Shown in pieces: positions 57 to 29,391 of a stretch of DNA of 36,437 bases (positions within the stretch are counted from its first letter, which is position 1; each line of letters starts with the position of its first letter). The notes beneath the pieces are model-generated. The model saw only the letters and a list, made by a program, of their open reading frames with translations. It did no database searches and was not told the origin of the DNA. The stretch covers positions 1-36,437 of the forward strand of contig CALGKJ010000121.1 in assembly GCA_937930535.1 (NCBI GenBank). The letters are read 5' to 3'. Made by a program: the position numbers and the translations under genes. This stretch comes from an uncultured Clostridia bacterium. GTDB lineage: Bacteria > Bacillota > Clostridia > Lutisporales > Lutisporaceae.

Positions 57-85
57 TTGACGTTTAATTAAATTAATGATATCAT
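57..85 (+). promoter_or_regulatory. SigA-type promoter for the candidate sRNA
   Basis: The -35 box TTGACG (57-62) and the -10 box TATCAT (80-85) are separated by exactly 17 bp. No open reading frame with a ribosome binding site follows, and a strong terminator starts about 40 bp downstream, so the promoter would drive only a short RNA. Confidence 0.55.
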
Positions 86-91
86 TAATAT

Positions 92-174
92 ACAGAGACC
101 CCCACACATCCCTCCCTCGTAGAAAAGAAAGTGTCGCAATGTATCCCCCATACACTCGACACTTTCTTTTTTTA
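92..174 (+). ncRNA. Candidate C-rich small regulatory RNA
   Basis: The predicted transcript is about 80 nt: it starts near 92, just after the promoter at 57-85, and ends in the T-run at 167-173. Its 5' part (97-118) is unpaired and rich in C, with the motifs ACCCCCAC and ATCCCTCCCTC. The terminator loop shows UCCCCC again. Such C-rich single-stranded motifs are typical of Firmicute sRNAs (for example the RsaE/RoxS type) that pair with Shine-Dalgarno sequences of target mRNAs. Promoter, C-rich motifs and terminator are seen in the sequence; a regulatory role is inferred. Because the terminator works in both directions, it could instead simply end a minus-strand transcript. Confidence 0.45.
123..170. 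terminator. Bidirectional intrinsic terminator
   Basis: Perfect 14-bp arms (123-136 and 157-170, AAAAGAAAGTGTCG and its complement) are extended by an inner imperfect stem, and there is a T-run on the plus-strand side. It ends the candidate sRNA and would also stop minus-strand transcription. Confidence 0.85.
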
Positions 175-7503: not shown

Positions 7504-8688
7504 TTGTTTAAAAAAATTTTAATAGCTTTAGTTACTTTTCTGCTCATATGCAATGCTTCTTTTGTGTTTTCAGATTCAAAAAAAATAGATATTCATTTCT
7601 TTGGTACAAAAACATGCTTTAGTTGTAATGATGCTGAAGCATTTATAAGACAAACTATAAAGCACATAGGTAAAAATAATAACATAAAGATTAACTTTTA
7701 CTATCATAGTATTATGAACACTCATGAAAAACAGCTTCAACTAGAATATGCTAAAGCCTACAAGGTGGAAGAAAGAATATCTAGAATTGTCCCGGCTGTA
7801 TATATTTCCAGCTACAGCCTTATAGGAAAGGATGAAATAAACAATAAATTGGAGACAACACTAACATCAATTATTAAAGAACCCAAGGAAAGCCCTTATA
7901 TCAATGAAATATCAGAAAACATAGAGAGCTCTACAACGCAAGCCTCTGAAAATCAAATAAGGAGCTTTACTCCTTTGGCTGTGTTTTTGGCTGGATTAAT
8001 TGATGGAGTTAATCCCTGTTCTATTGCAATGCTGCTTTTCTTTTTTTCATTATTAATAATGGCAAAGGAAACAAGCAAAGCTATACTATTGATAGGCGCA
8101 GCCTTTATTACAGGTATTTTTTCAGCATATTTGGGGATTGGATTAGGTCTGTTTAAATTTATGGATTTTTTAGGCAAAAGCAAAGGACTTATAGTAGGAG
8201 CTTACTCAGTTACTTTTATTATGACCTTTGGTTTATCTATTGTATATATTACCGATTACTATAAGGTTAGAAATAATAGATATAATCAAATTAAAAGTCA
8301 GCTGCCTAAAAGCATTAAGCATAAAATACATAACTATATAAGAAAAAAAGCAGCACAGAAAGTTTTTTTCATCACTGCTTTTGCTACAGGTTTTGCCATT
8401 TCCTTTCTTGAATTTTTTTGTACAGGTCAGATATATCTTCCGACTATAACCTTTGTTATTAGTACTGGATCTACATCAGCACTGGCCATAATATATCTAA
8501 TTCTATATAACTTAGCTTTTATTATTCCACTAATCATTATCTGTATAGCTATCGTCTGCGGAAAAAAGGTAATAGAAATATCCTCGTTGCTGGTACTGCA
8601 TATGCGTCAGATAAAGCTTGCAGGAGCCTTATTCTTTGTTACAATGGCTGTTTATACGGGTGCTAAGATAATCATATTATTGAAATAA
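7504..8688 (+). CDS. Thioredoxin-like/CcdA (DsbD-type) membrane redox protein
   Basis: This 394-residue protein probably moves reducing equivalents across the membrane to extracytoplasmic thiols. A signal or anchor segment (about 5-23) is followed by a thioredoxin-like domain with C-F-S-C (Cys38, Cys41). From about residue 155 there is a polytopic CcdA/DsbD transmembrane domain with its two expected membrane cysteines: Cys172 in the NPC motif of the first helix and Cys306 in EFFCTGQ of the fourth. The start is TTG with GGGGAGGTG upstream. Domain order (thioredoxin first, then CcdA) differs from E. coli DsbD, which ends in thioredoxin. No cytochrome c gene is present here, so repair or assembly of exported thiol proteins is the more likely role. 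Confidence 0.8.
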   Translation: MFKKILIALVTFLLICNASFVFSDSKKIDIHFFGTKTCFSCNDAEAFIRQTIKHIGKNNNIKINFYYHSIMNTHEKQLQLEYAKAYKVEERISRIVPAVYISSYSLIGKDEINNKLETTLTSIIKEPKESPYINEISENIESSTTQASENQIRSFTPLAVFLAGLIDGVNPCSIAMLLFFFSLLIMAKETSKAILLIGAAFITGIFSAYLGIGLGLFKFMDFLGKSKGLIVGAYSVTFIMTFGLSIVYITDYYKVRNNRYNQIKSQLPKSIKHKIHNYIRKKAAQKVFFITAFATGFAISFLEFFCTGQIYLPTITFVISTGSTSALAIIYLILYNLAFIIPLIIICIAIVCGKKVIEISSLLVLHMRQIKLAGALFFVTMAVYTGAKIIILLK

Positions 8689-11619: not shown

Positions 11620-11624
11620 TTCTA

Positions 11625-11790
11625 TATAGAAAGCAATAAATAATTTACATTGCTCAAATGCTTTCGTTTGCTTTCTATCAAATATAAATCGCACATCACA
11701 CTTGAGAAGCTGTAATTTATTTATTGCGATTTATATAGGTTATAACTTGGATTATAATTTATATTTTATGCTAAAAACCCTATAGTAAAT
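11625..11790. repeat. Cluster of further inverted repeats
   Basis: The gene-free region holds an imperfect palindrome TATAGAAAGCAA...TTTGCTTTCTAT (about 11625-11678), a perfect 11-bp pair ATATAAATCGC (11682-11692) and GCGATTTATAT (11726-11736), and a half copy of the GCTAAAAACCCTATAG palindrome (about 11770-11785). Together with copy B almost all of this 300-bp gap is palindromic. Confidence 0.6.
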
Positions 11791-28287: not shown

Positions 28288-29391
28288 TTATTTTTTTCTA
28301 ACTAAAAAGGCTGTAGGAATCTTTCTTCCTCCATACTTGCTGTAGGTTCTATTTATCAGTTTACCGTCTTTATACATAGATGTAGAGGTACCTCCATCAA
28401 GATTAAAGGCGTTATATGCACCATATTCCACCATTATATCTCTGACATCCTTTATACTTGCACCGATAGAATAACCTGGCTGTCTGCCATCTATTACTAG
28501 GAATATTATAGTACCGTCCTTACGCTGTCCTATGGCTGTTCTGGGGTCAATTCCCCAGCCTCCATTTCCCTGCATTGGTACTGTCTCACCATTTAAAATC
28601 AGAATGGGTGTAAAGAACACTGCATCTCGTACCTTCATACTAACGATATCTTCAAGCTTATAATTACCCATAATCAGCTTATGATCCTCTGTTAAACCTA
28701 CTATGTGATATATATGATCAGGGCTGCCTTTTATCAGCTTGCCTTTTGAGATTACTATTCCATCTGGTATTCCGCCAGAGCCATTTCCCTGAGGATCGTA
28801 GAAGCCGCCTCCGTTAATGCCTGCTTCGGCATCATACCTTTTAGCCATATCAACCAGCCTTTCGCCAGCTATATCCATTTTATCACTAATACCAACATAT
28901 ACCCTTGAGGGGTCGTATATTAAAAGAATTTTACCCTTATATGTTGGTGTAGATATATCAAATTCTTGTATAGGGAGAGTTTCCTTGGTATTGGAGTCAG
29001 GATTTTCGCCATTGATGCTTAAGGAAATCTCATCAGACTCGAACTCATCAGAAATAACTCCACTTACTCTATTGATATCTATTAAAGCATTGCTGGCATC
29101 GCAGTATTTAGAATCTGTTGTTTTTGCTGAGATTGAAATATCATTGAGTCTTATACTTTCAGTTGGCTTTAATACTTTATTTCTGGTCATTATTTCATCT
29201 ATTTCCTGTTGAGTAAAAAACAGTTTTGCAAGGTACTGGTGTTCTATAGTATTCATTGCTGTTGTCACCCATAAATCTTTAAAATATAAAATAGGACTAT
29301 GAAAGGTTATTATAAAGATAATAATAGTCAGTATCATTAGGTAGAAAATAAAATCTATTATTATTTGAGTTAATATCCCCAGCCATTTCAC
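28288..29391 (-). CDS. NAGPA/DUF2233 phosphodiester glycosidase-like protein
   Basis: This is a 367-residue protein with an N-terminal membrane anchor (about 8-32) and an extracytoplasmic NAGPA domain, the family of human GlcNAc-1-phosphodiester alpha-N-acetylglucosaminidase and bacterial exopolysaccharide-associated proteins. Family motifs are A-G-I-N-G-G-G-F-Y (about 193-201), D-P-R-T-A-I-G (about 285-291), V-I-D-G-R-Q (about 301-306) and N-L-D-G-G-T-S-T-S-M-Y near residue 337. The probable role is trimming of sugar phosphodiesters in cell-wall polymers or exopolysaccharide. The start is GTG with AAGGAGGG upstream. A 7-bp inverted repeat, GGTATGA/TCATACC (29412-29432), lies just upstream and may be an operator. 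Confidence 0.85.
   Translation of the reverse strand: MKWLGILTQIIIDFIFYLMILTIIIFIITFHSPILYFKDLWVTTAMNTIEHQYLAKLFFTQQEIDEIMTRNKVLKPTESIRLNDISISAKTTDSKYCDASNALIDINRVSGVISDEFESDEISLSINGENPDSNTKETLPIQEFDISTPTYKGKILLIYDPSRVYVGISDKMDIAGERLVDMAKRYDAEAGINGGGFYDPQGNGSGGIPDGIVISKGKLIKGSPDHIYHIVGLTEDHKLIMGNYKLEDIVSMKVRDAVFFTPILILNGETVPMQGNGGWGIDPRTAIGQRKDGTIIFLVIDGRQPGYSIGASIKDVRDIMVEYGAYNAFNLDGGTSTSMYKDGKLINRTYSKYGGRKIPTAFLVRKK

Follow-up and report, generated by a model that had tools for sequence, protein, structure and literature searches.

The window analysed here is an entire contig (C121, G000:C121) of 36,437 bases, so that window position 1 is contig position 1. Its left end carries, in order, a diverged half copy of a 114-bp double-hairpin intergenic repeat (1-57, + strand), a promoter-like site (57-85, + strand), a predicted small RNA (sRNA) of about 80 nt (92-174, + strand) that ends in an intrinsic terminator (123-170, + strand), a second hairpin with the appearance of a bidirectional terminator (AAAAACCCC..GGGGGTTTTT, 238-256), and, beyond that hairpin, a convergent gene for an SLH-domain (S-layer) protein (258-1985, - strand; Pfam SLH, E=9.5e-27). 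Because the window begins at a contig break, the left neighbour of the candidate sRNA lies out of sight. There is no + strand gene close downstream, and the candidate RNA is therefore not a leader.

The half repeat at the contig end lies outside the sRNA and sets its left context. Bases 7-46 are 85% identical (E=6e-6) to a copy of the repeat on contig C91, a match that probably makes the contig edge non-coding and puts any upstream stop further to the left; + frame 3 is open from base 3 until a stop at 69-71. The genome contains at least 41 matches to the repeat family, including two that stand at contig starts (C54 and C181), and a full copy is present in the window at 11623-11736 (- strand). 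The repeat consists of two adjacent AT-rich hairpins, ATATAAATCGC..GCGATTTATAT and ATAGAAAGCAA..TTGCTTTCTAT, which are related halves in inverted order, and it resembles MITE, ERIC or REPIN elements. Elsewhere in the window, positions 7504-8688 (+ strand) encode a predicted membrane protein of 394 aa, which matches no Pfam family at 0.001 and carries, close to its N-terminus, the CxxC motif CFSC.

The promoter-like site consists of TTGACG (57-62) and TATCAT (80-85) with a 17-bp spacer, agrees with the consensus at 10 of 12 positions and possesses an extended -10 (TG); a transcript starting 7 nt past the -10 would begin at position 92. A gap of 37 nt (86-122) leads from the promoter to the terminator, which is apparent both in the sequence and on folding, and in which a perfect 14-bp outer stem (123-136 with 157-170) encloses an inner stem of 5 bp (140-144 with 150-154) and is followed by a T run. 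This arrangement, reported in the first-pass annotation, is present exactly as described there. A simple automatic scan for terminators missed the hairpin, the loop of which exceeds 8 nt. The predicted RNA (92-176) folds with a minimum free energy of -22.4 kcal/mol (z = -8.0 relative to dinucleotide shuffles, none of 200 of which folds as well).

Three C-rich motifs are found in the + strand transcript: motif 1, CCCCC (99-103, predicted unpaired probability about 1), motif 2, TCCCTCCCTC (109-118, mostly unpaired, predicted probability 0.5 to 1; CCCTCCC at 110-116), and motif 3, CCCCC in the loop of the terminator hairpin (145-149, predicted unpaired probability 1). The predicted probabilities bear out the earlier description of two unpaired motifs and a third in a loop. 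Motif 2 includes CCTCC (CCUCC in RNA), the complement of GGAGG, and modelled pairing makes it the likely main seed of the candidate sRNA.

Comparison with a genome sample of 347 kb (20 stretches in addition to the window; 35% G+C) indicates that the unit is unusual for its genome. Non-coding DNA in the sample contains 110 promoters that score at least 10/12, of which only four are followed within 200 nt by a strong terminator with no intervening ORF. Two of these four pairs are both strands of one terminator, and the sRNA locus is the sole pair with a TG extension and a C-rich transcript (32% C, 12% G). Non-coding 28-mers with at least 13 C form about eight islands in the 347 kb; the C-rich tract of the sRNA is one, and three others share a single GC-rich contig.

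The 5' tail of the predicted RNA favours pairing with ribosome-binding sites. Calculated at 175 translation starts and set against coding sequence, its duplex energy comes to -4.1 kcal/mol, compared with a mean of -2.2 (sd 0.8) kcal/mol for 400 shuffles of the tail, nine of which reach the real value; an earlier comparison with 60 shuffles agreed. Most of this preference stems from motif 2, which by itself shows a preference of -4.9 kcal/mol for ribosome-binding sites, the strongest of the parts tested. Genome-wide, GAGGGAGGGATGTG, the extended complement, shows no enrichment when up to 3 mismatches are allowed (70+58 sites, or 128, versus 69+57, or 126, for a backwards control that is strict because it is itself purine-rich and Shine-Dalgarno (SD)-like). 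For the proposal in the first-pass annotation that GGAGG sites are potential targets, the presence of such sites is a weak argument alone because most genes possess one. Target prediction covered the 347-kb sample. The C tract has a base order well suited to pairing with SD sites, yet no dedicated target stands out. The best predicted site in the window belongs to a gene at 29391 (- strand) encoding a predicted 367-aa protein, the ribosome-binding site of which (GGAGGGAUGU) shares an uninterrupted ten-base complementarity with the sRNA tail (ACAUCCCUCC).

Searches for homologues of the sRNA were empty. No family in Rfam matches any part of the window at the gathering threshold, and bases 1-400 yield chance matches only, with RsaE absent, at E values up to 10. 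BLASTN against 60 relatives recovered just AT-rich pieces of its promoter region, terminator T runs and similar short matches, and a DNA-pattern scan of the genome collection proved too loose, returning 118 stretches, of which none with a T run shows the sRNA hairpin. A covariance model was built from the sRNA sequence alone, and such a one-sequence model detects close homologues only. It found a single copy in the genome of origin (a second match is the same hairpin on the opposite strand) and no paralogues there, no homologue among the family's 21 other genomes, and none in 391 genomes drawn from the class; the search at the level of the order covered the same 22 genomes as that of the family. 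Two weak matches were rejected as homologues, one (in genome G004) being a terminator between genes, beside a upp-like gene, and the other (in G018) a tRNA followed by its own terminator. The hairpin core has no match in viral contigs.

Nor can a syntenic site be compared, because the SLH gene lacks a clear orthologue even in a same-genus genome, where its best match is 26% identical. These results imply that the sRNA is either lineage-restricted or fast evolving, and are neutral as to its function. With no homologue in the 21 family genomes or the 391 class genomes, there is no sign of selection on the C motifs; a close relative with compensatory changes in the stem but an unchanged UCCCUCCCU would speak for sRNA function.

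The explanation that we favour, with confidence a little above even, is that the locus encodes a lineage-restricted, independently transcribed, trans-acting sRNA of about 80 nt that blocks SD sites. The promoter-like site would drive independent transcription of the RNA, which would end at the intrinsic terminator; the C-rich, G-poor 5' tail (CCUCC) would pair with the SD sites (GGAGG) of mRNAs and block them, and the three C motifs may provide alternative contacts, as in LhrC and IsrR. A perfect 18-bp palindrome (ATTAATGATATCATTAAT, 72-89) covers the -10 and is a possible operator at which a repressor might switch transcription of the sRNA, a suggestion that is weak. As read from its sequence, the locus is rare, well formed and of a known functional kind, the C-rich SD-pairing sRNAs, for which it is a plausible candidate: it has a predicted promoter and intrinsic terminator of its own, and C-rich motifs that are single-stranded in the predicted structure.

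The chief alternative is that the hairpin is simply a terminator, perhaps bidirectional, between an off-contig gene on the + strand and the SLH gene, the promoter-like site then being fortuitous or minor. Such an arrangement is possible but unlikely. The stem is perfect and lies between an A tract and a T tract, a layout typical of bidirectional terminators, the neighbouring SLH gene is convergent, the second hairpin at 238-256 is also bidirectional-looking, and + frame 3 is open up to 69-71 at the contig edge. However, the match of bases 7-46 to the intergenic repeat makes that edge probably non-coding, and the SLH gene already has a terminator-like hairpin of its own. Furthermore, neither a G-poor, C-rich tail nor an extended -10 promoter that agrees with the consensus at 10 of 12 positions is required of a simple terminator, and their co-occurrence here is unique in the 347 kb.

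Less probable is the processing of an sRNA with the same C-rich tail out of the 3' untranslated region of an off-contig mRNA. The tail and terminator would work equally well in a processed RNA of this type, and the left context does lie off the contig, but a good promoter-like site is present at the right distance, and the repeat at 1-57 would need to sit within the mRNA; this origin appears doubtful.

An independently transcribed, SD-blocking sRNA remains the preferred reading, and a special case of it, quite improbable in itself, would be an sRNA responsive to redox conditions or peroxide, under the control of a palindrome-binding repressor that also controls a peroxiredoxin gene. The nearest other intergenic copy of the palindrome (15 of 16 bases, or 1 mismatch, with 92% identity over the surrounding 25; L150, 1501-1516) starts 85 nt upstream of the ATG of a 2-Cys peroxiredoxin gene on contig C92 of the same genome, and of the 25 palindrome-like sites found when up to 2 mismatches are allowed, 22 fall within ORFs, this one being the only close intergenic copy. 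Against this, the total of 25 sites is near the 18 of the control, and the motif is absent from the same-genus peroxiredoxin orthologue (79% identity). No intergenic copy apart from that over the -10 of the sRNA was seen ahead of a gene, and none of these copies, the one at the peroxiredoxin gene included, is ahead of a recognised iron gene. The known Fur and PerR boxes have odd symmetry (7-1-7 in the Fur box), which the even palindrome does not fit. A redox repressor common to the sRNA and the peroxiredoxin gene is a lead only. Finally, a small coding gene can be read in the open frame from an ATG at 139 (MYPPYTRHFLFLFVLIYCPLFPLYW, a hydrophobic peptide, with a stop at about 216), but this is hardly credible, since the ATG is part of the terminator hairpin and lacks a Shine-Dalgarno site, and since the frame extends beyond the terminator.

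The SD-blocking sRNA would be a familiar kind of regulator for which no relative is detectable in any other genome searched. C-rich SD-pairing sRNAs have been described from Bacillus, Staphylococcus and Listeria (PMC4132741, PMC9410917, PMC5419742, PMC4409812). If the candidate is real in this lineage, the design would seem to evolve repeatedly in AT-rich genomes, in which SD sites account for most G-rich stretches; modest weight attaches to this, as it comes from a single candidate that is known from sequence and has no homologue in the genomes searched. A bolder version, which we consider a long shot, is that a lineage-specific C-rich sRNA originated independently of RsaE, LhrC and IsrR, shares its palindrome repressor with the peroxiredoxin gene, and represents a convergent redox-sparing sRNA, none being known from this lineage.

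The published C-rich sRNAs of low-GC Gram-positive bacteria that pair with SD sites include LhrC (PMC4132741), IsrR (PMC9410917) and RoxS (PMC5419742, PMC4409812), all of which carry redundant C motifs, both in loops and in single-stranded stretches (PMC4132741, PMC9410917, PMC5419742, PMC4409812). The ability of C-rich motifs to discriminate SD sites when the genome is AT-rich is stated in PMC9410917. The first-pass annotation had likened the candidate to SD-pairing sRNAs such as RsaE/RoxS, and a C-rich sRNA of SD-pairing build does accord with the anatomy of the locus, with how rare it is in the genome and with its bias towards ribosome-binding sites. RsaE/RoxS of Staphylococcus and Bacillus similarly have several C-rich regions able to pair with SD sites, four in RoxS (PMC5419742) versus three in the candidate (99-103, 109-118 and 145-149). 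The candidate differs in having no match to the RsaE covariance model, and membership of that family was rejected on the grounds that no Rfam match reaches the gathering level and RsaE is missing even at E values up to 10. FsrA of Bacillus subtilis also has a C-rich motif that pairs with SD sequences (cited in PMC9410917), but it has no sequence match with the candidate, for which no link to iron was seen.

The layout of the candidate is nearest to those of LhrC and IsrR. IsrR of Staphylococcus differs in its length of 174 nt, its three stem-loops before the terminator and its proven Fur boxes (PMC9410917), whereas the candidate is about 80 nt long with one hairpin, and its palindrome is not a 7-1-7 Fur box. 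LhrC1-5 of Listeria monocytogenes differ in possessing an extra 5' stem-loop A, in being multicopy and in their control by LisRK (PMC4132741), whereas the candidate has one copy and no sequence match with them. The plan of LhrC, in which stem-loop A, the single-stranded linker and the terminator loop each carry UCCC, is not fully reproduced here, stem-loop A being absent from the candidate and no Rfam match being found. LhrC pairs with an SD region through three redundant CU-rich motifs, of which one is single-stranded and another occupies the terminator loop (PMC4132741); the candidate likewise has a motif in its terminator loop, together with two that are single-stranded.
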